DNA from: Chloroflexota bacterium
Lineage (GTDB): Bacteria > Chloroflexota > Anaerolineae > VGOG01
DNA length: 32,468 nt
Assembly: GCA_016875995.1 (NCBI GenBank)
Contig: VGOG01000015.1
Coordinates: 1 to 32,468 of the forward strand
Direction of reading: 5' to 3'
This document shows, piece by piece, positions 6,630-32,396 of this stretch (within the stretch, counting starts at the first letter, position 1; the number at the start of each line of letters is the position of its first letter). Below the pieces are notes generated by a model. That model was given only the letters and a program-made list of their open reading frames with translations. It was not told where the DNA came from and did no database searches. Position numbers and translations under genes: made by a program.

Positions 6630-6632
6630 GTT

Positions 6633-7394: not shown

Positions 7395-7395
7395 G

Positions 7396-8439
7396 TTAAT
7401 CTCCGGCTTCCAACTCGCGGCGGAAGCGCTGGCTGGGCCAGAGGCCCTCAGGGCGAAAGACCATCATAGAGATCATTGCCGCCCCGAAAATGAGCATACG
7501 CCATTGCTGGATGTTTAGCAAAACCTCGCGCAGGATCTCCGGCAGGACGATCATGCCCACCGTGCCCACCAGCACACCGGGGATGGAGCCCGTGCCACCC
7601 AACACCACGATACAGAACATGATCACCGACTCCCAGAAGCTAAAGCTCTCCGGGGCGATGACGGTCACCCAACTGGCGTAGAGGTTCCCCGCCACCCCTG
7701 CCCAGGCCGCGCCGATGGCGAAGGCCAGCAGCTTCACCCGCACGGTGTCAATGCCCATGGCCTCAGCCGCCAATTCATCTTCGCGCACGCAGGTCCAGGC
7801 CCGCCCAAGGCGCGAGTTTTCCAGCCGCCGCATGGCGAAGATGGTGAGGGCCACGAAAGCCAGAAACAGGTAGAAATAGTGCCACTGCTGGCGGAAGGTA
7901 AAGCCCAGGATACCGGGCCGATTGATGCCGAAGATACCGTTGGGCCCTCCCGTGATCACCAGGCCGGTCAGCTTCTCCTCCAGGAATTGGAGGCCGGGGA
8001 TCTTGGATAGAAAGACCAGGCTACTCGCATCGTTGCGCAGGGAAATACGCACGATCTCTCCAAAGCCAATGGTCACGATACAGAGGTAGTCGCCGCGCAG
8101 GTGCAGTATCGGCCGGCTGATCAGAATGGCGAAAACGGCCGACACCAGGCCAGCCACAGGCAATAGCCAGAAGGTTGGGATGTTGTAGCGGCTGCTGAGA
8201 ATGGCTGTGGTATAAGCTCCTACGGCGTAGAAGGCAGCGTGGCCAAGCTGAAACAGTCCAGCGTAGCCCACAATGATGTTGAGGCTTAACCCCAGCAGGG
8301 CATACACAAAGAAGAAGTTGGCCACCTGCGTCCAACGCACGCTCCGAACAAGCCAGGGAAACAGGACAGCCAGGATAGTCAGCGCCAGGTACAAATAGCG
8401 CTCATCAAGTTTTCGCCAGCGGGCGATTAAGTCCATCAA
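7396..8439 (-). CDS. livM: Branched-chain amino acid ABC transporter permease LivM
   Basis: 347 aa, LSLNIIVGYAGLFQLGHAAFYAVGAY and GGTGSIPGVLVG motifs. Confidence 0.95.
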   Translation of the reverse strand: MMDLIARWRKLDERYLYLALTILAVLFPWLVRSVRWTQVANFFFVYALLGLSLNIIVGYAGLFQLGHAAFYAVGAYTTAILSSRYNIPTFWLLPVAGLVSAVFAILISRPILHLRGDYLCIVTIGFGEIVRISLRNDASSLVFLSKIPGLQFLEEKLTGLVITGGPNGIFGINRPGILGFTFRQQWHYFYLFLAFVALTIFAMRRLENSRLGRAWTCVREDELAAEAMGIDTVRVKLLAFAIGAAWAGVAGNLYASWVTVIAPESFSFWESVIMFCIVVLGGTGSIPGVLVGTVGMIVLPEILREVLLNIQQWRMLIFGAAMISMMVFRPEGLWPSQRFRRELEAGD

Positions 8440-8454
8440 GTGAACCCACCCCCA

Positions 8455-9369
8455 TCACAACTTCTCTACTACTCGCTCCCCGAGCAGCCCCGTAGGCCTG
8501 ATGATGAGTATCAACACCAGCACAAAGAAGGCAATGGCGTTTTTCCAGGCATCGGACACAAAACCAGTGGCCAGCGCCTCGATGACCCCTAAGATCAATC
8601 CTCCAATCATGGCTCCTGGGATGTTGCCAATGCCTCCCAGGATGGCAGCCGTAAACGCTTTGATGCCATATCCCCAGCCGAGAGTGAAGTAAATCCGGCC
8701 GTAGTAGAGGCCAACCATGATCCCGCCTGCTGCCCCCAGGGCTGGCCCGATGAGGAAGACTACCCTGATAATACCATACACATCAATCCCCATCAACCGC
8801 GCAGTGTCGTGATCCAAGGCCACGGCACGCATCGCGGTGCCTACCCTGGTGTATTGGACAAAGGAATACAAACCGACCATCAGGAGAGCAGCGATGACCA
8901 ACATCACGATCTGGATCAGAGAAATTCTCGCTCCAGCGATTTCCCAAATCGTATCCGGGATAATGACCTTGAACTCCTCAGGATACGTCCTGTACCTGGC
9001 GCCGTACAGGAGCATCACCCCGTTCTGAATGAAGATGGCAGCTCCCAAGGCAGAGATGACAGGAGGCAGGCGACCTGCACGATACAGGGGGCGATAGGCC
9101 ACCCGCTCCAGCACGATCCCCACTCCCGCTACCACAGCCATGACGATCAGGAAAATCAATATGAGAAATGGTAAGCCAGCCATGCCGAGATTGACCACGA
9201 ATCCCATCAAGGTAACCAGGCCCAGATAAGCACCCAGCATGAACATATCGCCGTGGGCGAAGTTGATCAGCTTGAGCACGCCGTAGACCATGGTGTAGCC
9301 TAAGGCGATCAGGGCGTAGAACGATCCAATGGTCAAACCATTTATCAATTGCTGCAGAAGTTGTCCCAT
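8455..9369 (-). CDS. livH: Branched-chain amino acid ABC transporter permease LivH
   Basis: 304 aa, QLINGLTIGSFYALIALGYTMVYGVLKLINFAHGD and GGIGNIPGAMIGG motifs. Confidence 0.96.
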   Translation of the reverse strand: MGQLLQQLINGLTIGSFYALIALGYTMVYGVLKLINFAHGDMFMLGAYLGLVTLMGFVVNLGMAGLPFLILIFLIVMAVVAGVGIVLERVAYRPLYRAGRLPPVISALGAAIFIQNGVMLLYGARYRTYPEEFKVIIPDTIWEIAGARISLIQIVMLVIAALLMVGLYSFVQYTRVGTAMRAVALDHDTARLMGIDVYGIIRVVFLIGPALGAAGGIMVGLYYGRIYFTLGWGYGIKAFTAAILGGIGNIPGAMIGGLILGVIEALATGFVSDAWKNAIAFFVLVLILIIRPTGLLGERVVEKL

Positions 9370-9430
9370 AGGCTATTACTCGCTCTAGCTATCATCAAAC
9401 CATAATCTGACCTACTGGCAGGCTATAAAA

Positions 9431-9499
9431 CGTAAAACGCGAAACGTGAAGAGTCGAGAACTGGAGGCAATCATCACGTTTTACGCTTCACGTTTTACG
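9431..9499. repeat. Imperfect inverted/direct repeat cluster (CGTAAAACG / CGTTTTACG)
   Basis: cgtaaaacgcgaaacgtga ... tcacgttttacgcttcacgttttacg between livH and livK. Confidence 0.75.
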
Positions 9500-9558
9500 T
9501 AGAGAGGGAGTTCTGAAGGTCTCCCCCCTCGAACTCCCTCTCCTGGTCTTGGCAGGGC

Positions 9559-10698
9559 CTACTTGACCATCTCGAACTCGCCGGCGTCGGTGATGACGTA
9601 GGCTTCGTGGACCGTGCCTAACCGGTCGCCTTTCTCGTCGAAGCCAATGATGTTGCCCGTGACGCCTGGGTAGTCCTTGAACTTGGCATGCAGGTACTCG
9701 GCCGTCTGCGCCGAATCGGTGGAGTTGGTCTCTTCCATGGCCTTGACGATGACCTTCAGAGCATCGCCAGCCATGACCCACCAGATGCTGGCGGGCGGTT
9801 CGCCGTACTTGGCGACGAAGTCGTTGTAAAATGCCTTGGCCACGTCGCCAGGGATGTCCTTGGGCAGCGGCTCAGTGGTAATGTAGGTGCCTTTGGCCGC
9901 GTCCAGTCCGGCGATCTCGATCATCTCCGGGTTGTTGCAGGCGTTGCCCATCACCCACTGGAAACCGACTCCTAACTCTTTAGACTGCTTCAACAGAAGG
10001 CCACCCTGCGGATGGTAGCCGGTGAAGTAGACAGCCTTAGGATTGAGCCCGTTGATCCTGGTCAGGATGGGTTTGAAGTCGGTATCCTCGGGGTTGATGG
10101 CGTCAATCAGCAACGAATTGCCACCCGCCTCCTTATAGTATTTCTCGGCCCACTCAGCCAGGCCCTGGGCATAGGTGGAGTTATCGTGCAGAAAGACCGC
10201 TGTATCTGCGCCCAGTTTCTCCAGCATGAAGTTGGCAGCGAACAGGCCCTGGCGGTCATCCAGGAAGCAGACGCGGAAGAAGCGCTGGTAGCCTTTCTGC
10301 GACAGCCGGGTGGCCGTCGAGGAAGGGGTGATCTGCAGGATGCCGGCCTCGTTGTAGATGGCCGAAGCGGGCTCGGTGCAGGTGGAGCTGTAGCTGCCCA
10401 CCACTGCCTTGACCCCGGCCGCTACCAGGGTGCTGGCGCACTTGGACGCCTCGTCAGGCTTGCCCACGTCGTCGCACTTGACGATCTCGATCTTGCGCTC
10501 ACCCAGGATGCCCTTCTCGTTGATCTGCCCTACCACCAGATCAACGACCTTGACGAAGCCCTCGCCCTCGTAGGCGTACTCGCCGGTGATGGGGGCTTGC
10601 AGGCCGATCTTGATGGGCTCCTTGGCCGCGGGCTGGCAGCCAACTGCCATGGATACCACCAGCAACAGGGTAATCGGAACCAATAGTTTCTTAGACAT
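9559..10698 (-). CDS. livK: Branched-chain amino acid-type ABC transporter substrate-binding lipoprotein (LivK/periplasmic-binding type I)
   Basis: Lipobox SMAVGC, IKIGLQAPITGEYAYEGEGF; heads livHMGF. Confidence 0.94.
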   Translation of the reverse strand: MSKKLLVPITLLLVVSMAVGCQPAAKEPIKIGLQAPITGEYAYEGEGFVKVVDLVVGQINEKGILGERKIEIVKCDDVGKPDEASKCASTLVAAGVKAVVGSYSSTCTEPASAIYNEAGILQITPSSTATRLSQKGYQRFFRVCFLDDRQGLFAANFMLEKLGADTAVFLHDNSTYAQGLAEWAEKYYKEAGGNSLLIDAINPEDTDFKPILTRINGLNPKAVYFTGYHPQGGLLLKQSKELGVGFQWVMGNACNNPEMIEIAGLDAAKGTYITTEPLPKDIPGDVAKAFYNDFVAKYGEPPASIWWVMAGDALKVIVKAMEETNSTDSAQTAEYLHAKFKDYPGVTGNIIGFDEKGDRLGTVHEAYVITDAGEFEMVK

Positions 10699-10867
10699 GA
10701 CTCGCTCCTCCTTATGTGTTTGATTTGCCTCCCTGTCACCCAGTGGGCCAGGGAGACCAGCAGGTCTGACAACGACCCTCTTTTGCCTTTCGCATCCCCC
10801 CTTTCACAGACGCTATGCAAGAAACGAGCATCACCACGATTTGCGCAGATTTCTTCAGGTTAAATTC

Positions 10868-10896
10868 ATTTTAGCACAAAAATGCCCGAAAGTCAA
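10868..10896 (-). promoter_or_regulatory. Sigma70-type promoter for liv operon (TTGACT-17-TAAAAT)
   Basis: Reverse strand TTGACT (10896-10891), 17-nt spacer, TAAAAT (10873-10868). Confidence 0.65.
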
Positions 10897-10907
10897 AACA
10901 CCCCCCC

Positions 10908-12113
10908 TCAAAGCACCATCTTCTCTCCTGAGATTACCACCTCTCCCCTGGCGAACCGCTGCCAACTGAAGGGGTTGTCCTGATCGGCCATCTGGCCGGT
11001 GATCATGGCCACCACGTAGCGGCTGCCCTCAGGAGCACCCATGATGCCGTGGCCGCTGTAGCCCAGGTTGAAGAAAAGGCCCTCCACGTCGGGAGAAGGG
11101 CCGAGGATGGGCTTCGAGTCGGGGGTGCAGGTGTACTGGCCGGCACTGAGGAAAACGCTGTCGCGGGTGAGCCGCCCCATCACCTCCTCCCAGAAAGGCG
11201 CGAGCCTCGACATCTCCTCCATGACCAGGGCCGGGAAGGCCCAATCGGTGGGCACTTTTTCCAGCGGTTCACCGGGCTCCTCAGGGGTGGCCCAACCCAT
11301 AGCCGCTCCTCCCACCTCGGGCCGCCAATAGGCTCCCGAGGGGACACAGATGGTCATGGGAGCATCCTGGGGAATGGCAGCGTCCTGGCCGACTATCACC
11401 TTCTGCCGTCGCAGGATGGTCAAGGGCAACTCCAGGCCAGCTAACCTGGCCACCTGACCAGAGAATGGCCCGGCGGCGATGACCACCGTTCGGGTGGAGA
11501 TGGAGCCACGATTGGTCTCCACGCCCTTTACACCCTGGCTGTCGAGTTCGATTCCTGTGGCTTTGGTGCGTAAGAGAAACAGGGCTTCGCTGCCTTTGGC
11601 AAACCCGTGGGTCAGCTCGTGGGTCGAGAGCCAGCCATCGCGGGCGCGGTAGGTGGCGGCGGTTACTTGGGGGGAGGCCCAGGGGAAACGTTGCCGTACC
11701 TCGTCGCCGCTCAGAAACTCCACGTCGTCCAGGCCGATGCTCTGCTGAAGTTCGACCCTGGCCCGGAGGGTCTGCGGGCCTTCGGGATCGTCGGTGTAAA
11801 AGAGGTAGCCCTGCTGGTGTAAATTGATGTCATACCCTGGAATGCCGATCGCCTCAGAGAAGTTCTCGAAGACCTCGATGGAAGCCTTCATCATGGCCAC
11901 GTTCTCCGGCTCGCTGAACTGAGCGCGGAAACACTCTTCTGAGGCCGCGGTGGTGAGGGTGCCCAGGCCATCCCGCATCTCCAGCACCACCGCCTCCAGG
12001 CCAGCTCTTGAGGCGTAGAAAGCAGTGGCTGTCCCCAGGATGCCTCCGCCGATGATGACCACCTCGGCCTGCCTGGGGAACTCGCTCGCATCTGGAACGA
12101 TGATCTTACCCAT
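10908..12113 (-). CDS. DAO-type FAD-dependent oxidoreductase (DadA / sarcosine-dimethylglycine oxidase-like) 1
   Basis: GxGxxG EVVIIGGGILGTATAFYASRAG; C-terminal GLFFNLGYSGHGIMGAP. Confidence 0.92.
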   Translation of the reverse strand: MGKIIVPDASEFPRQAEVVIIGGGILGTATAFYASRAGLEAVVLEMRDGLGTLTTAASEECFRAQFSEPENVAMMKASIEVFENFSEAIGIPGYDINLHQQGYLFYTDDPEGPQTLRARVELQQSIGLDDVEFLSGDEVRQRFPWASPQVTAATYRARDGWLSTHELTHGFAKGSEALFLLRTKATGIELDSQGVKGVETNRGSISTRTVVIAAGPFSGQVARLAGLELPLTILRRQKVIVGQDAAIPQDAPMTICVPSGAYWRPEVGGAAMGWATPEEPGEPLEKVPTDWAFPALVMEEMSRLAPFWEEVMGRLTRDSVFLSAGQYTCTPDSKPILGPSPDVEGLFFNLGYSGHGIMGAPEGSRYVVAMITGQMADQDNPFSWQRFARGEVVISGEKMVL

Positions 12114-12175
12114 TTACTTCCTCCTAACGTCGTTGTTACGAGTGCTCTTCTTGGCCTCGTGCCACTCCGCACCAG

Positions 12176-12204
12176 ATTATGCCATAACCTACGGAATTAG
12201 TCAA
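12176..12204 (-). promoter_or_regulatory. Sigma70-type promoter (TTGACT-17-CATAAT) upstream of FAD oxidoreductase 1
   Basis: Reverse strand TTGACT (12204-12199), 17-nt spacer, CATAAT (12181-12176). Confidence 0.5.
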
Positions 12205-12207
12205 CCA

Positions 12208-13356
12208 TCAAACGACGCGCCTTTCTCCCGTCATCTCCTCGGCCCTGAATCTCTCCAAGCGGAAGGGGCTGAGGTCGTGCTCGGTCTGACCAGTGGTGAT
12301 GAGGTGCGCCAGGATGCGCCCCACGGCCGGCGACTGCATGAAGCCGTGGCCGCTGAAGCCCACGGCGCAGTAGAAGCCCTCCACCCCGCCGATGTCTTTG
12401 CCGATGATAGGGTTGTCGTCGGGGGTCACGTCGTAGAGGCCGCCCCAGCCGCGCATGAAGTCCGCTCGATCGAGGGCTGGCGCGCGGTGAGCGGCCTTTT
12501 CCGCCACCTTGACCAAAAACTCCAGATCGAAATTGGTGTTGAAGCTGGGGGGCTCATCCTGGTCGGTCATGCCCATCAGGATGCTGGCCCCCTCCCGCCG
12601 GAAGTAGAAACTGGGGGCGAAGTCAATGATCATGGGGATTTGCTTTGGCAAGTCGTCAAAGGGCGCGGTAACGAAGACCTGGCGACGATAGGGCACGACG
12701 GGCAGCTCCAGGCCGACCATGCGTCCCACCTGGGCTGCCCAGGCCCCGGCCACGTTGACCACTGCGGGGGTGGCAATTTCCCCTTTGTTGGCCACCACCG
12801 CCCTCACCCTCCCCTTGCCCACCTTGATGTCCAGAGCCTCCGTCTCTTCGCGAATACTCACCCCCAGACGCCGCGCCTGCCTGGCGAAGCCCATGGCCAC
12901 ACTGTAGGGATCGGCGTAACCGTCGCGCGGGCAGAACGTGCCTCCCAGAACGTCGTCCAGATAGAGATAGGGAGCCATATCGCCGATATCCTGTGGTGAC
13001 AGCAGACGCACCGGCACACCCATGCGCTGCTGCAGGGCCACGTTGGCCTGGAATTCGGCCCAGTCTTTGGGCTCTGTGGCCAGGAACAGGTAGCCATGCT
13101 GGCGGAAATCTATCTCCGTGTCGAATTCTTCGGCAAAGTGTTCAAAGTACCGCAGGCTCTCCATGGAGATGCGGATGTTGGCCTCGATAGAGAACTGCAG
13201 CCGGATTCCCCCGGCCGACAGGCCCGTGGAGCCGGAGACCAGTTGCTTCTTCTCCACCAGCACCACGTCCTGGCAGCCCAACCTGGCCAGATGATAGGCG
13301 GTACTGGTCCCCATGACCCCACCGCCGATGATCACCACGTCTGCTTTTTCCATCAC
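12208..13356 (-). CDS. DAO-type FAD-dependent oxidoreductase (sarcosine oxidase beta/DadA-like) 2
   Basis: ADVVIIGGGVMGTSTAYHLARLG, SGSTGLSAGGIRLQFS, GFYCAVGFSGHGFMQSPAVG. Confidence 0.94.
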   Translation of the reverse strand: MMEKADVVIIGGGVMGTSTAYHLARLGCQDVVLVEKKQLVSGSTGLSAGGIRLQFSIEANIRISMESLRYFEHFAEEFDTEIDFRQHGYLFLATEPKDWAEFQANVALQQRMGVPVRLLSPQDIGDMAPYLYLDDVLGGTFCPRDGYADPYSVAMGFARQARRLGVSIREETEALDIKVGKGRVRAVVANKGEIATPAVVNVAGAWAAQVGRMVGLELPVVPYRRQVFVTAPFDDLPKQIPMIIDFAPSFYFRREGASILMGMTDQDEPPSFNTNFDLEFLVKVAEKAAHRAPALDRADFMRGWGGLYDVTPDDNPIIGKDIGGVEGFYCAVGFSGHGFMQSPAVGRILAHLITTGQTEHDLSPFRLERFRAEEMTGERRVV

Positions 13357-20866: not shown

Positions 20867-22324
20867 ATGCTCAGACCCAAGCTGGAACTACTTGACAAAG
20901 GAACCGTCGAGCGTATCCTGGCGGAGGCCCACGAGTTGCTGTGGGACCCAGGTGTGCGCATCCACAGCGACCAGGCCCTGAAGCTGGTCGCTGAGGCCGG
21001 AGCTACGGTTGATTTCGCCAGCAAAGTGGCTAACATCCCGGTCGAACTGGTTAATAAAACCCTGGAAACGGTCCCTTCCTCGTTTTACCTCTACGATTCC
21101 GAGAGGAACCCTGTCGTCCACTACGGCGACGACGACGTGCAGTTCGACCCAGGCTCAGCAGCCATCGAATTCCTGGATTATGGAGCGACCCGGTCGCGCA
21201 AACCCGTCACCGCCGACTTCGTCGCTTACATCAAGCTGGCTGAGATGCTGCCCGAACTGGACGCCGTCAGCACGGCCCTGGTCTGCTCGGATGTGCCGGA
21301 GAGCATGGCCGATCTGTATCGTCTCTACCTGGTGCTGCGCTACGCCAGGAAGCCCGTGATCAGCGGCGCTTTCGCCGTCGAGACCTGGTCCATCATGAGA
21401 GACCTGCTGGTGGCCGTGGCTGGCAGCAAAGAGGCCCTGGCCGCCAAACCCATTGCCGTGTTCGACGTCTGCCCCTCGCCTCCCCTGCTGTGGAGCGAGA
21501 TCACCTGCCGGAACATGATGGACTGTGCCCGCGCCGGCATACCGGCTCAACTGGTCTCCATGCCCCTGGCTGGCGCGACAGGCCCCGCCACCCTGGTGGG
21601 CTCGGTGGTGCAGCACGCCGCCGAATCGCTGAGCGGGATCACCATCCACCAACTGGCCAGGGCCGGAGCCCCCATCGTCTGGGGTGGCTCGCCCGCCGCG
21701 TTCGACATGCGCACCGGGACACCGCCCATGGGGGCCATCGAGACCCTGATGATAGATTGCGCTTACGTCCAGGTCGGCAAGTACCTGGGACTGCCCACCC
21801 ACGCCTACATGGGCATGAGCGACGCCAAGATCGTGGACGCCCAGGCCGGCTTCGAGTCGGGCATCGGCAACGTTCTGGCCGCCCTGGCCGGGGTGAACAT
21901 GGTCTCCGGCGCCGGCATGATGGACTTCGAGAGCTGCTTCAGCCTGGAGAAGCTGGTGATTGATAACGAGCTCATCGGCATGGCCCGCCGCCTGGTGCGG
22001 GGCGTGGACACCTCGGAGGATCCATTGGCCACGGCCATCATGCGCCAGGTCGGCCATGGAGGCAATTTCCTGGCCACCAAACACACCCGCCGCTGGTTCA
22101 GGCAGGAGCTATTCATCCCTTCCCCGGTCATTGACCGCGATTACCGGGAGGCCTGGGAATCCAAGGGCGCGAAGGATGTAGTGCAACGAGCACATGAACG
22201 GGTGGAGCAGTTGCTGGCCGCCTACGAGCCCAAGCCGCTGCCCAAAGAGGTAGAGCAAGAGCTGGTAGCCATCACCCTGCGGGCGGCCCAAGAGCGGGGG
22301 ATGGGGACACTACCGCCGTTGTAA
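20867..22324 (+). CDS. MttB superfamily (COG5598) methyltransferase, non-pyrrolysine, copy 1
   Basis: 485 aa; ELLWDPGVRIHSDQALKLVAEAGATVDF, CPSPPLLWSEITCRNMMDCARAGIPAQLVSMPLAGATGPATL, SDAKIVDAQAGFESG; no internal TAG, stop TAA. Confidence 0.93.
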   Translation: MLRPKLELLDKGTVERILAEAHELLWDPGVRIHSDQALKLVAEAGATVDFASKVANIPVELVNKTLETVPSSFYLYDSERNPVVHYGDDDVQFDPGSAAIEFLDYGATRSRKPVTADFVAYIKLAEMLPELDAVSTALVCSDVPESMADLYRLYLVLRYARKPVISGAFAVETWSIMRDLLVAVAGSKEALAAKPIAVFDVCPSPPLLWSEITCRNMMDCARAGIPAQLVSMPLAGATGPATLVGSVVQHAAESLSGITIHQLARAGAPIVWGGSPAAFDMRTGTPPMGAIETLMIDCAYVQVGKYLGLPTHAYMGMSDAKIVDAQAGFESGIGNVLAALAGVNMVSGAGMMDFESCFSLEKLVIDNELIGMARRLVRGVDTSEDPLATAIMRQVGHGGNFLATKHTRRWFRQELFIPSPVIDRDYREAWESKGAKDVVQRAHERVEQLLAAYEPKPLPKEVEQELVAITLRAAQERGMGTLPPL

Positions 22325-22343
22325 TCTATTGGGGAAAACGGGT

Positions 22344-22381
22344 AATGAGGCAATGAGGCAACGAGGCAATGAGGGAATGAG
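22344..22381. repeat. Tandem 8-mer AATGAGGC (about 4.75 copies)
   Basis: aatgaggc aatgaggc aacgaggc aatgaggg aatgag. Confidence 0.88.
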
Positions 22382-22389
22382 TCGAGTGG

Positions 22390-22439
22390 ATTCGGGATTC
22401 GTAGACTCGTCCGAATCTACGAATCTACGAATCCCGAAT
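22390..22439. repeat. Perfect 16-bp inverted repeat ATTCGGGATTCGTAGA / TCTACGAATCCCGAAT
   Basis: Arms 22390-22405 and 22424-22439 immediately upstream of MttB copy 2. Confidence 0.92.
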
Positions 22440-22445
22440 TTACGA

Positions 22446-23891
22446 ATGGAGGTGCTGAGCCAGGAGGATGTGCGACGCATCCACCGCGCCAGCCTGGAGG
22501 TCATCGAGACGGTGGGAGTGTGCTTTCCCTCGGTCCGGGCGCTGGGTATTCTGGAAGAGGCCGGGGCGGCGGTGGATAGAGAAAGCCAGATCGCCCGTAT
22601 CCCAGGCCGGATTATTGAGGAGGCCCTGGCCAAGGCCCCGCCGTCTTACGTGCTTTGCGCCCGCGACCCGGCCCTGGACCTGCCTCTGGACGGCGAGCAC
22701 TCCTATCTATCCACCGACGGCTGCGGGGTAGAGGTCATTGACCTGGACACGGGGGAGCGACGGCGTTCGACCAAACAGGATGTAGCTGAGTCAGCATTGG
22801 TGGCCGATTACCTGCCCCAGATCGCTTTCTATTGGCCCATCGTAGCCGCCCAGGATTGTCCCCCGCAGACGCGCTCCCTGCACGAGCTGGAGGCGGCCTG
22901 GAACAATACCACCAAGCACGTCCAGACCGAGTGCGTCATCACGGCCAGGGAAGCCGAAGCGGCTATCGAGCTGGCAGCAGCCATCGTCGGTGGGCGCGAG
23001 GAGCTGCGGAAACGTCCCATCCTCTCCATCATGCAGTGCACCATCAGCCCGCTGGGGCAGGATGGAGGCAGCCTGGAGGCGGCTCTGGTGGCTGCCGAAG
23101 CTGGGCTACCCGTAGGTTTCATGACCATGGCCAGTTGCTGCTCCACCGGGCCGGCCACCCTGGCCGGCAACCTGGTGGTGGGCAACGCCGAGGTCATCGC
23201 TGCCTCGGCCCTCATCGAGCTGGCCTGCCCAAGCGCGCCCATTTTCTACGCTGCGGCCCAGACGGCCATGGACCTGCGCAGCGGGGGCTACACCGGCGGC
23301 GGGCCGGAGGATTACCTGTTTGGATGGGCCACCAACCAACTGGCCGACTTCTACAGGATCCCCCTCTCCATGGGCGCCTTCGCCACCGGCGCCAAGCAGC
23401 CCGACTGGCAGGCCGCCCTGGACAACGCCCTGGCCGGCCTGATGCCCGTGCTCAGCGGGGCCGACATGCTGACCGGTGCTGGCCTGCTCTATGGCTCGCG
23501 CATTCTGTCCTACAAGCAACTACTTCTGGATTGCGAAATCTACGACGTCATCCAGGCCACCGTGCGAGGCATCGAAGTAAATGAGGAGACCCTGGCCCTG
23601 GATGCCATCAAGGCCGTGGGCGTGCGGGGAAACTATCTGACCCACAAACACACCCTGAAACACATGAGGGAGCGCTGGGTGCCCAGCCTGGTGGATCGTC
23701 GCTCATACAGCGTCTGGGAAGAAGACGGCCGGCGCGGGGCGAGGGAGTGGGCCCGCGAGAAGGCGAAGTGGATCCTGGCTAATCACCGCCCGCAGCCGTT
23801 GGAGCCCAGGCTGCGGGAAGAGCTATCCAACATCATTGATAAGGGACAAGGGACAAGGGATAAGGGACAAGAGGCATCCATCATTCCCTAA
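22446..23891 (+). CDS. MttB superfamily methyltransferase, non-pyrrolysine, copy 2 (divergent)
   Basis: MEVLSQEDVRRIHRASLEVIETVGVCFPSVRALGILEEAGAAVD; SCCSTGPATLAGNLV; start chosen at 22446 because upstream codons are repeat sequence; stop TAA. Confidence 0.88.
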   Translation: MEVLSQEDVRRIHRASLEVIETVGVCFPSVRALGILEEAGAAVDRESQIARIPGRIIEEALAKAPPSYVLCARDPALDLPLDGEHSYLSTDGCGVEVIDLDTGERRRSTKQDVAESALVADYLPQIAFYWPIVAAQDCPPQTRSLHELEAAWNNTTKHVQTECVITAREAEAAIELAAAIVGGREELRKRPILSIMQCTISPLGQDGGSLEAALVAAEAGLPVGFMTMASCCSTGPATLAGNLVVGNAEVIAASALIELACPSAPIFYAAAQTAMDLRSGGYTGGGPEDYLFGWATNQLADFYRIPLSMGAFATGAKQPDWQAALDNALAGLMPVLSGADMLTGAGLLYGSRILSYKQLLLDCEIYDVIQATVRGIEVNEETLALDAIKAVGVRGNYLTHKHTLKHMRERWVPSLVDRRSYSVWEEDGRRGAREWAREKAKWILANHRPQPLEPRLREELSNIIDKGQGTRDKGQEASIIP

Positions 23892-23935
23892 TCCCTAGTC
23901 CCTAGCCCCTGATCCCTAGTCCCTGAGGGACAGGG
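23838..23935. repeat. GGGACAAGGGA / TCCCTAGTCCCTA repeat cluster between MttB copies 2 and 3
   Basis: aagggacaagggacaagggataagggacaagagg... taatccctagtccctagcccctgatccctagtccctgaggg; first part coding in MttB-2 C-terminus. Confidence 0.88.
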
Positions 23936-23944
23936 AGGTGAGCC

Positions 23945-25423
23945 GTGCGACCCAAACTGGAAATCCTGGACCAAGAACTGGTAGAACGCATCGTGGGCGA
24001 GGCCTACGAGCTGTTGTGGGACCCCGGCGTGCGGGTGCACCGGGAGGGTGCTCTCAAGCTCCTGGCTGATGGCGGGGCCACAGTGGACTTCGAGAAGAAG
24101 ACCGCCAGGATACCCCAGGACATGATCGAGGAAGCGCTGAAGACCGCCCCAGCCAGCGTGGACATCTACGACCTGAAGGGGGAGCTGCGTCTGCACCTGG
24201 GGCAGGACAACGTCTACTTCTACCCCGGCGCCACCGCCCTGCAGATCATAGACCCCGCCACCGACGAGTACCGCCCTCCCGTCACCGAGGACCTGGTGCG
24301 CTTCATCCAGGTGGTGGAGGGCCTGCCCCAGCTTGACGCCCAGGCTGGCTCGCTGCTGTGCGCCGACGTGCCCAGGATGGTTTCGGACAGCTACCGCTAT
24401 TACCTGATGCTGCTCTACGGCAGCAAGCCCCTGTGTGGCGGGGCCTTCAGCATCGAGGGCTGGTATCCGATGAAGGACCTGCTGGTGGCCTACCTCGGTA
24501 GCGAGGAGGCCATCGCCGCCAAACCGGTCAACACCATGGCCATCTGCCCCTCGCCGCCCCTCCTGTGGAGCGAGATCACCTGTCAGAACCTGATGGACTG
24601 CGCCAGGTGGGGCTTGCCAGCGGTGCTCATCTCCATGCCCCTGGCCGGAGCCACCGCCCCGGTGACCATCGCCGGCGCGGTGACACAGCACACTGCTGAA
24701 TCCCTGAGCGGCGTGGTCATCCACCAGTTGGTGAATCCCGGTGCGCCCATCATCTACGGCGGCTCGCCCGCCATGTTCGACATGCGGGAGGGCACCACGC
24801 CCATGGGCTCGATCGAGACCGTCATGATCAACTGCGCCAACGTCCAGGTGGGCAAATATCTGGGCTTGCCCACTCACGGCTACGTGGGCCTGAGCGACGC
24901 CAAAATCGTGGACGCGCAGGCCGGCCTGGAGTCGGCGATGGGGGCGATCCTGGGCGCGCTGGCTGGAATCAACCTGATTTGCGGGGCCGGCATGTCCGAC
25001 TTCGAGAGCGGGCTGAGCTTCGAGAAGGTGGTAATTGACGCCGAGGTGATCGGCATGACCAGGCGGTTGCTGGCCGGAGTCGAAGCCCGTGAGGAGACCT
25101 TGGCTACAGCCTTGATGCGGGAGGTGGGACATCACGGCCACTTCCTGGCCACCGATCACACCCGGAAGTGGTTCAGAGAGGAACAGTACATTCCCTCGGC
25201 GGTCATTGACCGGGCTTCCCAGAGCACCTGGGAAAATCGTGGGGCTAAGAACGTCGTGCAACGGGCCCGCGAGCGGGCCGAGGCCCTGATCGCCCAGTAC
25301 CAGCCCCCCGACGTGCCCGTCGAGGTCCGCAAGGAACTGAAAGCTGTTATGAGCAGGGCTGCGAGGCAGTATGGGATGGACGAATTGCCGCCGTTACCAG
25401 AATTGCAACGTCGCAAAAGCTAA
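23945..25423 (+). CDS. MttB superfamily methyltransferase, non-pyrrolysine, copy 3
   Basis: 492 aa, visibly closely related to copy 1 (RPKLEILDQELVERIVGEAYELLWDPGVRVH; LLWSEITCQNLMDCARWGLPAVLISMPLAGATAPVTIAG); GTG start; stop TAA. Confidence 0.93.
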   Translation: MRPKLEILDQELVERIVGEAYELLWDPGVRVHREGALKLLADGGATVDFEKKTARIPQDMIEEALKTAPASVDIYDLKGELRLHLGQDNVYFYPGATALQIIDPATDEYRPPVTEDLVRFIQVVEGLPQLDAQAGSLLCADVPRMVSDSYRYYLMLLYGSKPLCGGAFSIEGWYPMKDLLVAYLGSEEAIAAKPVNTMAICPSPPLLWSEITCQNLMDCARWGLPAVLISMPLAGATAPVTIAGAVTQHTAESLSGVVIHQLVNPGAPIIYGGSPAMFDMREGTTPMGSIETVMINCANVQVGKYLGLPTHGYVGLSDAKIVDAQAGLESAMGAILGALAGINLICGAGMSDFESGLSFEKVVIDAEVIGMTRRLLAGVEAREETLATALMREVGHHGHFLATDHTRKWFREEQYIPSAVIDRASQSTWENRGAKNVVQRARERAEALIAQYQPPDVPVEVRKELKAVMSRAARQYGMDELPPLPELQRRKS

Positions 25424-25689: not shown

Positions 25690-26439
25690 CTATAAGATAT
25701 GCCGCAGAAAATCCTTCGTGCGCGGGTCCTGGGGGTGCTCGAACATCTCCTTCGGCGTTCCCTCCTCGACCCATACCCCATCATCCATGAAGATGATGCG
25801 ATGGGCTACTTCGCGGGCGAAGCCCATCTCGTGGGTGACGACAATCATGGTCATCCCCTCCCGCGCCAGGCGCTTCATCACGTCCAGCACCTCGCCGATC
25901 AGCTCCGGATCCAGCGCCGAGGTGGGCTCGTCGAAGAGCATGATCTTGGGCTCCATGGCCAGGGCGCGGGCGATGGCTACCCGCTGCTGTTGCCCACCGG
26001 AGAGGCGCGCCGGGTACTCGTCGCGCTTGTCCATCAGCCCCACCCAGCCCAAGAGCCGTTCGCCGATCTCAGTAGCTTGCCCCCTGGACATCCCTTTGAC
26101 CGTCATGGGCCCCTCGATGACGTTCCCCAGGGCCGTCATGTGGGGAAAGAGATTGAAGTGCTGGAAGACCATGCCGGTCTTGGCCCGAATCTGTTGGATG
26201 TGGGCACGGTGCTCGCGACCGGGCTCCCCCGCCGGAATGACCACCCCGTCAATCTCGATAGTGCCCGCCGTCGGCTCCTCCAGAAAATTCAGACAGCGCA
26301 GAAAAGTGCTCTTCCCCGACCCGGAGCGGCCGATGACTACTAACACCTCGCCCACTTCCACATCGAGATCTAGTCCCCTCAGGACGTAGAGCTTGCCGAA
26401 GCACTTCTCCAGGTTCCGAACCTTGATGATGGGTGCCAT
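25690..26439 (-). CDS. glnQ: Polar amino acid ABC transporter ATP-binding protein (GlnQ/HisP type)
   Basis: [61 protein letters not shown]. Confidence 0.96.
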
Positions 26440-26456
26440 CTCACTTCCTCGCGTCC

Positions 26457-26490
26457 AGACTTCCGAAGTTTCCAGAAACTTCGGAAGTCT
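26457..26490. repeat. Perfect 16-bp palindromic repeat AGACTTCCGAAGTTTC-CA-GAAACTTCGGAAGTCT
   Basis: Arms 26457-26472 and 26475-26490 in the glnP-glnQ gap. Confidence 0.92.
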
Positions 26491-26496
26491 TGCGAA

Positions 26497-27354
26497 TCAC
26501 TTCCTCTCACCCCGACCCATGTGAGCCTCCAGGCGAGCCTGCAGGGCCTGCAAGACAATGCACATAACCCAGTAGACGATCGCAGCCACGGTCAGCGTCT
26601 CCAGGGAGCGGAAATAGCGGCGGCCCATTTTGGTGGCGCGGTAAGTCAATTCCCAGACGCCCATCACCGACACCAAGGACGAATCCTTGATCATAGCCAC
26701 GAAGTCGTTGCCGATGGGGGGGATAACGACGCGGAGAGCCTGGGGCAGGATGATGCGGCGCATGGTCTGGCTTGGCGTCATGCCCACCGAATAAGCGGCC
26801 TCGGTCTGGCCTTTACGGATGGACTGGATGCCGGCCCGGAAGGTCTCGGTCATGTAGGCCCCGTAGCACACCCCCAGAGCCAGGACGCCGGCCGGGATAG
26901 CGGGCAATGTCAGGAGCTTCTGCGCCCCAGCCAAGCCAATTGCTTCCAACTGTTGCCCGATCTGTGGTAAGCCAAGGTACCACACGTAGACCTGAACCAG
27001 CAGGGGCGTGCCTCGGATGAAGGAGACGTAGAAGGTGGCAACGGCATTGGCGATGGGGTTCCTGGAAAGGCGTCCCAACGCTCCAATGAGGGCCAAAATG
27101 ATGGCTACGGTGATGCCTGCTGCCGACACGATCAGTGTGTATTCGATCCCCTCGATAATGAAGTCCAGCCTATCGAACATGAAATTCACGTCGAATCTAA
27201 GAAGGTTGAACACCACTCCCAGGGTGACGAAAATACCGAGCCACACCACTATCAATTTGATAACGAATCCCCGCACTTTGGCCCGCTGGCAAGCGATATT
27301 TTGCTGGGCCTCGGCCGATGGCTGAGCTACCACGACAGTAGATGTGCTACTCAT
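26497..27354 (-). CDS. Polar amino acid ABC transporter permease (GlnP/HisM type)
   Basis: FIRGTPLLVQVYVWYLGLPQIG, EAAYSVGMTPSQTMRRIILPQALRVVIPPIGNDFVAMIKDSSLVSVMGVWEL; start at 27354 with SD GGAGGTG. Confidence 0.95.
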   Translation of the reverse strand: MSSTSTVVVAQPSAEAQQNIACQRAKVRGFVIKLIVVWLGIFVTLGVVFNLLRFDVNFMFDRLDFIIEGIEYTLIVSAAGITVAIILALIGALGRLSRNPIANAVATFYVSFIRGTPLLVQVYVWYLGLPQIGQQLEAIGLAGAQKLLTLPAIPAGVLALGVCYGAYMTETFRAGIQSIRKGQTEAAYSVGMTPSQTMRRIILPQALRVVIPPIGNDFVAMIKDSSLVSVMGVWELTYRATKMGRRYFRSLETLTVAAIVYWVMCIVLQALQARLEAHMGRGERK

Positions 27355-27583
27355 CAGATCACCTCCATTCAAGTTCGTAGGTAGGAGGTAACTATTCACC
27401 TGCTCCCGCCGGATCGCCAGATTCGGCGGCCGACCAAGCTGAATTTGGCTAATTCCAGTCCATGAGGCCTGGATTTGGCAATCCAGGCCGAGCAAGGTGA
27501 GCAGTCACGGTAGGAGTAAGGCTTGTTCTTACTCAACTCTGGAGGGCGTTTTCAACCTCAGACAGGGGTTCCTGGCCCGCCGC

Positions 27584-28501
27584 TCAATCGGCGCGCAGAC
27601 GGGGATCCAAAGCGTCGCGTAGGCCATCGCCCAGCAGGTTGAAGCCCAGCACGCCCAGCATGATAGCCACACCTGGAGGAACGATGACCCACCAGGCGCC
27701 TTTGGCCAGGAACTTGTAGCAATCGCTCAGCATCGCTCCCCACTCTGGCTTTGGCGGCTGCTGTCCCAGTCCCAGGAAACCCAGCCCCGCCGCCCAGAGG
27801 ATGGCGCTCGCCAATCCCAGGGTGGATTGCACGATGATAGGTGAGAGGATATTGGGCAGTATGTGCCAAAACAGGATGCGTAGCCCCGTCACCCCAGAGC
27901 AAGTGGCAGCCGTAACGTACTCCTGCTCCCTGACCGAAAGCACCATCGAACGGGCCAGGCGGGCGAAGATGGGGATAAACACCACCCCAACGGCAACCAT
28001 GGTATTGTTCAACCCTGGCCCGCGCACAGCGACGATGGCAATGGCCAGAAGCATGGCCGGGAAAGCCAGGACGATGTCCATGCAGCGCATGATAATGTTG
28101 TCAGTCATCCCTCCAATAAAGCCGCCCAGCATACCCAGGGTCCCCCCAATGATCAAACCCATACCCACAGAAATGATGCCTACTCCCAACGAATAGCGGG
28201 CCCCATGGACTAATCGCACCACCACGTCTCGCCCCAGGTTATCGGTCCCCAGAAGGTGTTCGTGTGAGGGGGGCCTGAGCCGATCCTTGAGGCTAGAGTC
28301 TGTTTTGGGGTCGTAATCGTGTACGATGGGCGCTAGCACGGCCACCAGTAGTAAGACACCGATGATGACCATGCCCAGGCGCGCGGTATTGAGGGAAATC
28401 AATCGCCGCCAGGCATCGGCCCACAGAGAGCGCTGTCTGCGCACCGCAAAATCTACCGCTAAGTCCGTTTGACGGGCAATAGTCTCAGCCATAGCCCTCA
28501 C
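27584..28501 (-). CDS. dppC: Peptide/nickel-type ABC transporter permease DppC
   Basis: HEHLLGTDNLGRDVVVRLVHGARYSLGVG; EAA loop region; GLGFLGLGQQPPKPEWGAML; 4-nt overlap with dppB. Confidence 0.95.
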   Translation of the reverse strand: MRAMAETIARQTDLAVDFAVRRQRSLWADAWRRLISLNTARLGMVIIGVLLLVAVLAPIVHDYDPKTDSSLKDRLRPPSHEHLLGTDNLGRDVVVRLVHGARYSLGVGIISVGMGLIIGGTLGMLGGFIGGMTDNIIMRCMDIVLAFPAMLLAIAIVAVRGPGLNNTMVAVGVVFIPIFARLARSMVLSVREQEYVTAATCSGVTGLRILFWHILPNILSPIIVQSTLGLASAILWAAGLGFLGLGQQPPKPEWGAMLSDCYKFLAKGAWWVIVPPGVAIMLGVLGFNLLGDGLRDALDPRLRAD

Positions 28502-29577
28502 TCGAATCGAATCTTGGGGTTAAGGAAAGCATAGGAAACGTCAACTGCCAGGTTGATCACCGCTATGACCAGAGTGATGATCAGGACAGCTACCTGCACG
28601 ACGGGGTAATCCCGGGACAGGATGGCGTCGTACACCCATTTTCCCACCCCAGGCCAGGAAAAAACCGTCTCGGTCATGATGGCTCCTGCCAGCAGACCGC
28701 CGACCTGCAGACCGATGATCGTGATCACTGGCAGGAAGGCATTCTTCAGAGCATGACGCAAGATCACAACCTTCTCCTGCAATCCCTTGGCATAGGCCGT
28801 GCGGATGTAGTCCTCCTGCAACACTTCCAACATGGCGGAGCGGGTCATGCGGGCAATAATGGCCATAGGAATAGTGCCCAGGGCGAAAGATGGCATCACC
28901 AGATGTTTGAGTGCCAGACGCAAGGCCTGATAGTTGCCTGTGACGATACTGTCAAGGGTATAAAGGCCGGTGACCGTCTGGAGTGACAGGTCAACCGGAA
29001 ACCGACCATAGGTGGGAAACCATTTCAATCTGACCCCAAAAAAGTAAATGAGCATCAGCCCCAGCCAGAAGACAGGCATGGAGACGCCCACCAGTGAGCC
29101 GATCATGCTCGCACTATCGAAAACAGAGTTGCGCCGCGTGGCAGAGATGATGCCCGCCGGGATGCCTACGGCGATGGCAAAAGCCATGGACAGGAGCGAC
29201 AGCTCCACGGTGGCCGGGAATTTCAATTTCAGCAAATCAGCGATCGGCGTACGTCCATGAACGGACCTCCCCAGATCGCCTCGCAGCAGACGGCCCAGAA
29301 AGAGAAAATATTGCGATTCGAAGAGATTCCTGAACCCTTCACCGATGCTGGCCTCACCACTAAAGACCTGGCCCACGGCAGCGGGATTCAAGAAGAGCGG
29401 CTTGTTCAACCCCAACTGTTCGCGGATGCGTTCCACGTTTTCCACGGCGGCGTGCTCGCCCAGCATGACGATCGCTGGATCGCCAGGGATAAGGTGGATG
29501 AACAGGAAAACGATGACCGTCACCCCCAACAGAGTGGGAATCAGAGAAATCAACCTGCGGATGATGTATCTGGTCAT
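28498..29577 (-). CDS. dppB: Peptide/nickel-type ABC transporter permease DppB
   Basis: MTRYIIRRLISLIPTLLGVTVIVFLFIHLIPGDPA; TETVFSWPGVGKWVYDAILSRDYP. Confidence 0.95.
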   Translation of the reverse strand: MTRYIIRRLISLIPTLLGVTVIVFLFIHLIPGDPAIVMLGEHAAVENVERIREQLGLNKPLFLNPAAVGQVFSGEASIGEGFRNLFESQYFLFLGRLLRGDLGRSVHGRTPIADLLKLKFPATVELSLLSMAFAIAVGIPAGIISATRRNSVFDSASMIGSLVGVSMPVFWLGLMLIYFFGVRLKWFPTYGRFPVDLSLQTVTGLYTLDSIVTGNYQALRLALKHLVMPSFALGTIPMAIIARMTRSAMLEVLQEDYIRTAYAKGLQEKVVILRHALKNAFLPVITIIGLQVGGLLAGAIMTETVFSWPGVGKWVYDAILSRDYPVVQVAVLIITLVIAVINLAVDVSYAFLNPKIRFE

Positions 29578-29606
29578 TATGAAAGCACCCCTTGAAACAA
29601 GGATAA

Positions 29607-29637
29607 AAGGGGGTGCGGGACAACCCCGCACCCCCTT
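29607..29637 (-). terminator. Perfect 13-bp GC-rich stem-loop in SBP-dppB gap (attenuator/terminator or mRNA stabiliser)
   Basis: AAGGGGGTGCGGG / CCCGCACCCCCTT; on the reverse strand the stem runs into TTTT. Confidence 0.7.
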
Positions 29638-29704
29638 CTGCTGTCATGCGCGGCTCGTGACAGAGCCCAGGCCTGGTGCGGCTAAAGACCCAGCCTCACT
29701 ACGC

Positions 29705-32197
29705 CTAGTCCTTGATCACGACCCTCTCGTACTTGTCGGCGCCCACCGGCTGCACCTGGAAGCCGCTGACCTTCGAGGAGAAGAGACGCGGGGTGTTGTT
29801 GTGCATCACCCACAGGCGCGCACGGTCCTTGTGCAATAACCGCTCGACCTCCTCGTAGAGAGGCGCGCGCTTGGCCTGATCACGCTCAGTAGCCGCCTGG
29901 TAGAGCAGTTCGGCCACTTGCTGGTTGGCGTACCAACCCTCGCGTCCGTGAGGCTCTCTGACCTGACCGGGGGCACTCAGCCCGCCGAAGAAGTAGTTGA
30001 GGAAGTTGTCGGGGTCGCCGTTGTCGCCACCCCAGCCGAGCATGTAGAGGCCGTACAAGCGGCCCTCACGCCGCGCAGCGAGATAGGACGGCCAGTCGCC
30101 TTCCAGCACCAGCTCGGTCACGATGCCGGCCTTGGCCAGATCCGCAGCCATGGCCTCGCCGATCTCCTTGGGGCTGGGATAGTAGAAGCGGGTCACCGGC
30201 ATGTAGTAGAACTTCAGCGGCCCGACTTCGCCAGTGTCCAGGTTGGTGACTTCCTTCAACCCATCCGGGAAGCCAGCCTCGGCCAACAACTGCCTGGATA
30301 GCTCAGGATCGTAACTCCAATCCTCGATCTCAGGGCGGCCCCACATCGAAGGATGCAGGAAGGTGCTCGCCACCTGGCCATACTCACCGTAGAAGGCTTC
30401 TCTCAGAGCCTCGCGGTCAATGGCGTGGAACACCGCCTCTCGCACCCTCGGATCCTGGAACTCCTTGATGTGGTAGTTGAAGGCCAGATAAGCCGTGTTC
30501 AGACCCGTCGCCTCCACGTAGCAGTCGGGATCGGCCTCGCAATCCTTGATGTCTTCGATGTTGGCCTGCTCCATGGCGTGGATGTCGCCAGCCTTGAGGG
30601 CCAGGTAGCGGGCCGAGTCGTCGGGGATCACCCGCCAGATGATCTTTTCCAGGGTCGGCTTACCGCCCCAGTAGTCCACGTTGGCTTCCACCGTGATGTG
30701 GTGATCCTCCACCCACTCCACGAACTTGAAGGGGCCGGTTCCCACTGCTCCCACCGTCGGCATCCCATAGTCCGCCCCGTACTTCTCCAGAGCCGCAGGA
30801 CTGGAAATGGCGAACATGTCCATGGCCAGGTTGGCCAGTAGGGGAGCCAGCGGCGCTTTGAGGGTGATCTTGACCGTCAAGTCGTCCACCGCTTCGAAGC
30901 CGGTGATGAGGCAGTCATCGTCGAAGCCGTTGAACATGTACTCCCAGTACTCGTACACCTGGGTTTCGAAGTGCAACGGGTGATCGGTCTTCCACTGACG
31001 TTCGTAGTTGAGTACCACGGCGTCGGCATTGAACGGAGTGCCGTCGTGGAACTTAACGCCCTGGCGCAGGTTGATGGTCCACACCAGGCCATCGTCGCTG
31101 ACCGTGTAGCCAGTGGCCAGCGCCGGGATGGGTCTGGTGCCACCGTCCTCGTACTGGAACAACGGCTCCAGGATCTGGCCGGTGACGCGGAAGCTCTCGC
31201 CATCGGTGACCACGGCCGGATCGAGCTGGACAGAGTCACCGCCACGGCCGAAGATGAAGGTCTTGCCAATCGCTGGCTTCGGCGGGGTCGGCTTGGTGAT
31301 GTCCTCGCCGTACCAGTTCATGGAGAAGGCGGTCAGAGTGCCGTCGGCGTGCATGTCGGCGATGATCTGGTTGAGCTTGGCCAACAGCTTTTCGCCGGGC
31401 CCCCGCGCCTTGTCCAGGGCGAAGGACAGGGGCTCGTAGAAGGCCGGATCACCGACCAACTTGATGGGCACGCCCTCGACAATGGCAGCCTGCAAGGTGG
31501 GGACGGCCGACATCACGGCGTCCAGGCGGACGCCGTCGCCCAGCTTCAGGTCCTCGATGGCGTTGGCGTCGGTGGGGTAGGTTTTCAGCTCGCCAGGCTC
31601 CCAGGGGACGTAGTTAACCTCATATCCCGGTATGGAAATGACGAGGTCCTTCTCCATGAAGTACTCGTAGGTGCACTCGCTGCAGCAGCCGATGACCTTG
31701 CCTGCCAGGTCGTCAGTGGTCTTGATGGTCGTATTGTCCTTGTGCACGGCAAAGCCAGCAGGCGTGTAGTAGTAGGGATCGGTGAACCACAGCACCTTGC
31801 CCCGTTCTTCCGTGGGGGTCATGCTGCCGATGCTGATGTCCCAACGCCCACCCCAACTGCCAGCAGTGATGAGATCCCAGTCGGGGGTCACGAACTCCAC
31901 CTCGACGCCCAACCGCTTGGCGACCTCTTTGTAGACGTCAATGTCGAAGCCAACCATCTCCCCAGCTTCGTTCAGGAAGCTCTGGGGTGCGTAGTTAGGG
32001 TCGGTGGCTCCCAGCAATTTGCCTTTCCCCAGAATTATGTCCAGGAGATCTTCGACCACCGGGATCGGCGTGGGGGGCACCGGGGTCGGCGCAGGGGCCA
32101 TCGGGGTCGGTGTTGGCTTAGGGGCACAACTAACCACCAGGCTAGCCACCACGATCAAAGCCAACAGCGAAGTTACCAGATTTCTTTTGCTAATCAT
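29705..32197 (-). CDS. Fused solute-binding lipoprotein: SBP_bac_3 (about aa 52-300) + SBP_bac_5 (about aa 313-830)
   Basis: Lipobox LVVSC at Cys24, T/P-rich linker, GATDPNYAPQSFLNEAGEMVGFDIDVYKEVAKRLGVEVEF...MTPTEERGKVLWFTDPYYYT (SBP_3), linker EDITKPTPPKPAIG, then SVQLDPAVVTDGES...LATGYTVSDDGLVWTINLRQGVKFHDGTPFNADAVV (SBP_5). Confidence 0.93.
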   Translation of the reverse strand: MISKRNLVTSLLALIVVASLVVSCAPKPTPTPMAPAPTPVPPTPIPVVEDLLDIILGKGKLLGATDPNYAPQSFLNEAGEMVGFDIDVYKEVAKRLGVEVEFVTPDWDLITAGSWGGRWDISIGSMTPTEERGKVLWFTDPYYYTPAGFAVHKDNTTIKTTDDLAGKVIGCCSECTYEYFMEKDLVISIPGYEVNYVPWEPGELKTYPTDANAIEDLKLGDGVRLDAVMSAVPTLQAAIVEGVPIKLVGDPAFYEPLSFALDKARGPGEKLLAKLNQIIADMHADGTLTAFSMNWYGEDITKPTPPKPAIGKTFIFGRGGDSVQLDPAVVTDGESFRVTGQILEPLFQYEDGGTRPIPALATGYTVSDDGLVWTINLRQGVKFHDGTPFNADAVVLNYERQWKTDHPLHFETQVYEYWEYMFNGFDDDCLITGFEAVDDLTVKITLKAPLAPLLANLAMDMFAISSPAALEKYGADYGMPTVGAVGTGPFKFVEWVEDHHITVEANVDYWGGKPTLEKIIWRVIPDDSARYLALKAGDIHAMEQANIEDIKDCEADPDCYVEATGLNTAYLAFNYHIKEFQDPRVREAVFHAIDREALREAFYGEYGQVASTFLHPSMWGRPEIEDWSYDPELSRQLLAEAGFPDGLKEVTNLDTGEVGPLKFYYMPVTRFYYPSPKEIGEAMAADLAKAGIVTELVLEGDWPSYLAARREGRLYGLYMLGWGGDNGDPDNFLNYFFGGLSAPGQVREPHGREGWYANQQVAELLYQAATERDQAKRAPLYEEVERLLHKDRARLWVMHNNTPRLFSSKVSGFQVQPVGADKYERVVIKD

Positions 32198-32367: not shown

Positions 32368-32396
32368 AGTATAACAGAGAATGGCAAATTTGTCAA
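32368..32396 (-). promoter_or_regulatory. Sigma70-type promoter TTGACA-17-TATACT for hybrid ABC operon
   Basis: Reverse strand TTGACA (32396-32391), 17-nt spacer, TATACT (32373-32368). Confidence 0.8.

Follow-up and report, generated by a model that had tools for sequence, protein, structure and literature searches.

We analyzed a 32,468-nt stretch of DNA from a Chloroflexota bacterium of the class Anaerolineae (contig VGOG01000015.1 of assembly GCA_016875995.1; hereafter the window), in which five successive genes on the minus strand (25690-32197) encode a receptor joining a family-3 and a family-5 substrate-binding protein (SBP3 and SBP5), the permeases DppB and DppC, a polar amino acid transport (PAAT) permease, and a GlnQ-like ATPase. 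We consider it likely that these genes represent two ATP-binding cassette (ABC) importers nested in one operon, with their receptors merged into a single lipid-anchored chain. The SBP3 half would pass a small, amino-acid-like ligand with a carboxylate to the PAAT permease, which GlnQ powers, and the SBP5 half would take dipeptide-like ligands to DppB/DppC, whose ATPases DppD/DppF are probably borrowed from other operons.

A first-pass annotation made from the letters alone had described a continuous 830-aa open reading frame (ORF) with one lipobox, in which SBP3 is followed by an SBP5 without its own signal. The ORF, Pfam matches, and sequence motif all agree with this description, and the presence of a fused SBP3-SBP5 receptor in a mixed ABC operon is confirmed. 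The ORF (29705-32197, minus strand) opens with ATG and a strong AAAGGAGG site, and a Pfam scan finds both families above their gathering scores, PF00497 (SBP_bac_3) at residues 64-298 (E 1.7e-32, 112.4 bits versus a gathering score of 26.4) and PF00496 (SBP_bac_5) at residues 356-739 (E 3.4e-95, 319.7 bits). The single signal and lipobox are N-terminal, and the lipobox Cys24 is near-invariant in a 37-sequence alignment. No transmembrane domain is fused to the binding domains, and only the signal helix lies ahead of both. The AlphaFold2 model based on the 37-sequence alignment has a mean predicted local distance difference test score (pLDDT) of 88 and shows two confident domains with a disordered joint at residues 306-310; its predicted template modeling score (pTM) of 0.69 is compatible with halves that adopt no fixed orientation. 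In Foldseek comparisons, the SBP5 half groups with glutathione- and dipeptide-binding proteins (3m8u, E 4e-52; 1dpp, E 1e-49), and its 265 bits against the NCBIfam DppA equivalog do not reach the cut-off of 1005. The annotation had also placed DppB, DppC, PAAT permease, and GlnQ-like ATPase genes downstream on the same strand, which Pfam and NCBIfam bear out.

We searched 298 genomes of the class Anaerolineae with two queries and annotated the fetched loci. The results show 61 SBP3-SBP5 fusions, including one SBP6-SBP3-SBP5, spread over 58 genomes and 19 families. The architecture and gene order of the window recur in its relatives, and SBP3 is always ahead of SBP5. The earlier annotation had raised the prospect that homologs always encode the two domains as separate genes; the homologs found are fused, split (L203 and L209), or fused to other receptors. 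The window is one entire contig of a fragmented metagenome-assembled genome of 414 contigs, which could favor a fusion made by mis-assembly or sequencing error. Such an origin is effectively ruled out by the 61 fusions in separate genomes, some of which lie on large contigs (1.5 Mb for L162 and L171, and 266 kb for L155), and by L119, a locus from another genome with the same pairing of SBP3 type A and SBP5 and an unbroken 72% DNA similarity across the junction (window 29726-32005). Beyond the class, the scan detects close relatives only. No full-length fusion was seen among the matches listed from other classes of the phylum, which is weak evidence given that the queries are family members, and a plasmid search gave three records at 80% coverage, and the one that was listed is broken in two, spanning more than a single annotated gene.

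The fusion is strongly associated with a PAAT permease. We counted loci that show DppC and do not break off directly behind it. Of the 40 with an SBP3 fusion, 35 have a PAAT permease farther downstream in the same directon, compared with 3 of the 29 whose SBP5 stands alone or is joined to SBP6 or Bmp. These three exceptions keep an SBP3 in the operon, as a separate gene in L203 and L209 and as an SBP3-SBP5 fusion in L136. The Fisher P of this association is 7e-11 for single loci and 9e-5 with every combination of family and class counted once, and independent pairs on the SBP5 tree give nine in the same direction (fusion with PAAT) and none in the opposite direction (median P 0.004).

The two halves of the receptor have separate histories. 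Across 34 complete loci, distance correlations link the SBP3 half to the PAAT permease (r 0.86) and GlnQ (0.84), and the SBP5 half to DppB (0.86) and DppC (0.86). The correlation between the two halves is only 0.20, their partial correlations are near zero, and the pattern persists within SBP3 type B. Pairwise comparisons give the same picture. L118, from the same family as the window and with the same neighbors (ApbA, an unknown gene, and MttB at 83-86% DNA identity), is 85, 86, and 91% identical to the window in SBP5, DppB, and DppC, versus 31, 37, and 57% in SBP3, PAAT permease, and GlnQ. L129 shows the opposite pattern, with 68, 56, and 73% identity in SBP3, PAAT permease, and GlnQ, versus 29 and 44% in SBP5 and DppC. 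These sequence comparisons suggest that each receptor half belongs with its own permease.

The blastn comparisons further show that SBP5, DppB, and DppC form a cassette, whose DNA is 83-88% identical to the window in L118 and L120 and 78-86% identical in L140 and L136. In L118, L120, L140, and L039, the similarity stops at window base 31267, within the linker, and the other border lies at most about 20 bases from the dppC end (27584) in most of these four loci. On the far side of base 31267, the window has SBP3 type A, L118 and L120 have SBP3 type B, and L140 and L039 have the LIV-type receptor SBP6; L136, whose SBP5 has its own signal, has no partner. In the SBP5 tree, which is blind to gain versus loss, the label SBP3 switches 19 times or more, and 16 of these changes are forced by starred branches alone. 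The fusion linkers are variable in sequence and range from about 2 to 35 aa in length. The gene order, in which SBP5-DppB-DppC stands between SBP3 and PAAT-GlnQ, suggests that a Dpp cassette was nested into a PAAT operon, and an in-frame fusion of the two receptor genes would have followed. In the relatives, the cassette remains stable and the N-terminal receptor changes, an SBP3 partner usually coming with the matching PAAT permease. L039 (a record titled Candidatus Neomarinimicrobiota chromosome) has a partial SBP6-SBP5 fusion (8083-10563) that matches the window cassette at about 85% identity, and a DppB (10991-11914) matched only over residues 4-206; this may reflect inter-phylum transfer or chimeric assembly.

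The supply of ATPases bears on the claim of the first-pass annotation that one GlnQ serves a single hybrid importer. GlnQ is the sole ATPase in the window operon, where Pfam finds no DppD/DppF, and multitask ATPases exist for sugar importers (PMC7658222), so that GlnQ might power both the PAAT permease and DppBC and make the operon one complete hybrid machine. We regard this as very unlikely. GlnQ co-varies with the PAAT permease (r 0.76), as it does with SBP3, but only at 0.25-0.37 with SBP5, DppB, and DppC. Unfused relatives of the cassette (L147, L219, and L220) have DppD/DppF; L129 and L139 carry a full set of DppB-DppC-DppD-DppF together with PAAT permease and GlnQ, and L130 and L136 carry the same set up to the contig or fetched end. 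The window genome is rich in DppBC, with about 17 DppB sites versus about 5-6 DppD/DppF sets, and at least four fetched DppBC sets are without an adjacent ATPase. DppD and DppF form a heterodimer, and GlnQ-type ATPases form homodimers, which also speaks against a shared GlnQ. The co-variation thus points to GlnQ as part of the PAAT half, and because of the site counts the ATPases of DppBC are probably supplied from other operons. The single hybrid importer is not supported, and what stands of the earlier proposal is the tethered receptor serving two permeases, as far as it concerns the adjacency seen in many relatives and the way in which each half tracks its own permease.

Two other readings concern the joint itself. 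Both halves could feed one permease, leaving the other incidental, as in GlnPQ, where a tandem of binding domains serves one translocator (PMC8025302); we hold this to be highly improbable, because the halves represent two distinct SBP families and co-vary with separate permeases. The joint could also be a neutral by-product, in which the Dpp cassette landed in a PAAT operon, a stop and a signal were lost, and the receptors act as if separate on a functionless tether. The nested gene order and abrupt DNA borders, the variable linkers, the split forms with the same gene set in L203 and L209, and the independent ligand binding of the GlnPQ tandem domains (PMC8025302) all fit this reading, which we nevertheless rate as rather unlikely. 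The many partner changes, together with SBP6, Bmp, and double fusions, suggest that joining is repeatedly favored or easily tolerated, without proving selection, and linker length affects transport in GlnPQ (PMC8025302).

Several observations weigh against two nested importers with a joined receptor. No PAAT permease is within view in the fusions L132, L133, L137, L176, and L128, several of which are limited by contig ends, and Dpp genes are not seen near the fusions L162, L171, and L174. Among SBP6-SBP5 fusions, a neighboring LIV component was seen in L140 alone, so the match between partner and permease is established for SBP3 only. When each family is represented by a single locus (14 loci), the ranking of correlations is unchanged (0.55 for SBP3-SBP5 versus 0.83 for SBP3-PAAT), but the contrast is weaker and the interval of the difference includes 0; the evidence from co-variation is therefore strong, not decisive. 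The architecture, its recurrence, the link to a PAAT permease, the co-variation, and the breakpoint are observed; the docking of the halves to two permeases and the advantage of the tether, as well as the ATPases acting in trans and the ligands, are inferred. In this reading, the joint imposes 1:1 receptor production and puts both receptors on one anchor.

The pocket alignment offers hints on the ligands. In the SBP3 half, the Arg (in TEER) that corresponds to R77 of the lysine-arginine-ornithine (LAO)-binding protein, which we take to contact the ligand carboxylate, is kept, and the position of D161, presumably the contact of the ligand alpha-amino group, is Ala in the window and in most type-A relatives. 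This position is Ser in L131-L133 and L162 and Asp in nearly all type-B fusions. Because the Arg is kept and the Asp is replaced by Ala, a carboxylate ligand with a modified or missing amino group, such as an N-methylated amino acid or betaine, is plausible for the SBP3 half. The first-pass annotation had proposed that peptides and their constituent (methylated) amino acids are perhaps handed on; the replaced Asp and the MttB-family methyltransferase genes next to the operon are the only hints in that direction. The SBP5 half keeps R355 and D408 (mature E. coli DppA numbering), and both are kept in 88 of 95 aligned sequences. In E. coli DppA, these residues (R383 and D436 of the precursor) hold the carboxyl and amino ends of the dipeptide (PMC12136057). 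The coordinates of all features are collected below.

Table 1. Features of the operon, by position in the window
Feature	Position	Strand	Evidence
Fused SBP3-SBP5 lipoprotein gene, 830 aa	29705..32197	-	Uninterrupted ORF; two Pfam domains; AlphaFold2 model; 61 fused relatives
Signal peptide and lipobox, residues 1-24 (VVSC, Cys24)	32126..32197	-	Sequence motif
SBP family-3 domain, residues 51-300, subtype A	31298..32047	-	PF00497; solved relatives; pocket alignment
Flexible linker, residues 301-311	31265..31297	-	pLDDT <50 at 306-310; DNA-similarity breakpoint 31267
SBP family-5 domain, residues 312-830, DppA-like	29708..31264	-	PF00496; pocket alignment; Foldseek to 1dpp and 3m8u
SBP5-DppB-DppC cassette	27584..31267	-	blastn; flanks unrelated or diverged on either side
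DppB-type permease, 359 aa	28498..29577	-	PF00528, PF19300; top NCBIfam model DppB, under its cut-off
DppC-type permease	27584..28501	-	PF00528, OppC_N; top NCBIfam model DppC, under its cut-off
PAAT permease, 285 aa	26497..27354	-	PF00528; TIGR01726 HEQRo_perm_3TM, 80.5 versus cut-off 42.2
GlnQ/TcyN-type ATPase of PAAT module	25690..26439	-	PF00005, 120.9 versus 25; co-variation with SBP3 half
Promoter-like site upstream of operon, TTGACA-17-TATACT	32368..32396	-	11/12 consensus matches
Hairpin-rich putative RNA region, receptor gene to dppB	29605..29707	-	Ends in long terminator-like stem, 29605-29639

Several elements of the operon were annotated further. The most likely starts are ATG 29577 for DppB and ATG 27354 for the PAAT permease, both preceded by a plausible ribosome site; the respective ORFs are open to 29631 and 27495, and their longer listed forms rely on upstream GTG/TTG codons. 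The ATPase scores 321.8 against the NCBIfam GlnQ equivalog, below the cut-off of 379. Both promoter-like hexamers are identical in L118, within a 69-bp upstream match that is 81% identical. The hairpin-rich region folds in common with six relatives (consensus energy -56 kcal/mol) and has little covariation because the sequences of the relatives are so alike, and an Rfam search of the operon gave no match.

The neighboring genes were also surveyed for enzymes that could name a substrate. Three MttB-family genes (PF06253) stand in tandem at window 20867-25423, convergent with the transporter operon; all three are under the NCBIfam trimethylamine methyltransferase cut-off, and an Rfam PYLIS_3 match (the pyrrolysine insertion element of mttB; 21815-21914) lies inside an MttB-family gene with a stop-free frame. 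MttB as a general partner was rejected, since beyond the window it is seen only in L118, L192, and L193. The loci examined for type-A SBP3 relatives in Rhizobiales have PAAT permeases and no MttB. Among 88 neighboring genes, the families are scattered and no substrate-naming enzyme is common; MFS transporters are the most frequent (7), and there are a few peptidases. Elsewhere in the window (5913-13356), a complete LIV-type operon (SBP6, two permeases, and two ATPases) lies beside two DAO-family oxidoreductases.

The fetched loci contain further receptor fusions and unusual permeases. The other fusions (L140 937-3777; L142 3827-6730; L194 9670-12528; L197 5905-8775 and 9268-13278; L153 4618-8016; L141 6625-9564) include SBP6-SBP5, SBP6-SBP6-SBP5 (1336 aa), SBP6-SBP3-SBP5 (1132 aa), and Bmp(PnrA)-SBP5, the last of these next to a double ATPase of RbsA type. 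The only Pfam match in a long open frame of L152 (1-5555; about 1850 aa) is an SBP5 domain (residues 886-1255). In L192 and L193, the GlnQ gene is followed by an MttB gene and then by a second, divergent SBP3-SBP5 fusion. The fused gene often has a LIV-type branched-chain importer operon as its neighbor, in most cases immediately upstream, so that three ABC importer families cluster together (L118, L120, L121, L122, L129, L139, L154, L163, L164, L166, L168, L170, and L173). Some permeases carry large extra domains (L139 766-3027; L129 1311-3479 and 6807-8480; L130 10731-13067; L185 7634-8950; L168 12719-14098), namely a WD40 propeller or DUF11/Ig-like domains on PAAT permeases and a Reg_prop propeller or bacterial SH3 inside DppB. 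DppC has a partial SBP3-like segment after the first transmembrane helix in L129 (5542-6795), L130 (13074-14252), and L137 (272-1417), with 35-50 bits to SBP3 references and no Pfam match. Considering the combinations SBP3-SBP5, SBP6-SBP5, SBP6-SBP3-SBP5, SBP6-SBP6-SBP5, and Bmp-SBP5, we tentatively suggest that Anaerolineae might build combinatorial multi-receptor lipoproteins that couple importers of different ABC families, in some operons with permeases bearing grafted propeller, Ig-like, SH3, or half-receptor domains. Such a surface uptake complex could let one anchor serve several translocators.

ABC importers are taught as one receptor for one translocator, or several receptors for one translocator. 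One chain with two receptor halves, each tracking a different and unrelated translocator, would, if true, be a third arrangement. In the open-access papers searched, we found no report of receptors from families 3 and 5 in one chain, or of a chain whose halves go with different translocators. The near-constant SBP5-DppBC cassette with a partner swapped at one base is a natural experiment, in which the effect of the tether on uptake is measurable with matched variants. Caution is also needed with best-hit annotation, which labels SBP3-SBP5 fusions as plain peptide receptors.

The closest parallel is GlnPQ of Lactococcus lactis, whose tandem binding domains act independently and whose linker length affects transport (PMC8025302). 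Like GlnPQ, the fused receptor has two membrane-tethered binding domains with different ligand preferences in one chain with a flexible linker. In GlnPQ, both domains belong to family 3 and are fused to the permease of one translocator (PMC8025302), whereas the fused receptor combines families 3 and 5, has a lipid anchor, and tracks two permeases. The SBP5 half and DppB/DppC resemble E. coli DppABCDF (PMC12136057), with a homologous receptor that keeps both dipeptide-binding residues; the DppB scoop residue E41 is kept, and R42 is His (counted by eye from ATG 29577). Unlike DppABCDF, the window receptor bears a second receptor N-terminally and misses the DppA equivalog cut-off, and the operon is without dppD/dppF. 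MsmX-type multitask ATPases, known for sugar importers (PMC7658222), are a precedent in which a permease is powered by an ATPase from another locus; for DppBC, such use of DppDF is proposed here. The remaining genes match the PAAT importers GlnHPQ, TcyJLN (cystine), and EhuABCD (ectoine) in having an SBP3, a HEQRo-type permease, and a GlnQ/TcyN-like ATPase. Unlike in those importers, the window SBP3 is not a separate gene but sits before a Dpp cassette, and it is of subtype A without the amino-group Asp.

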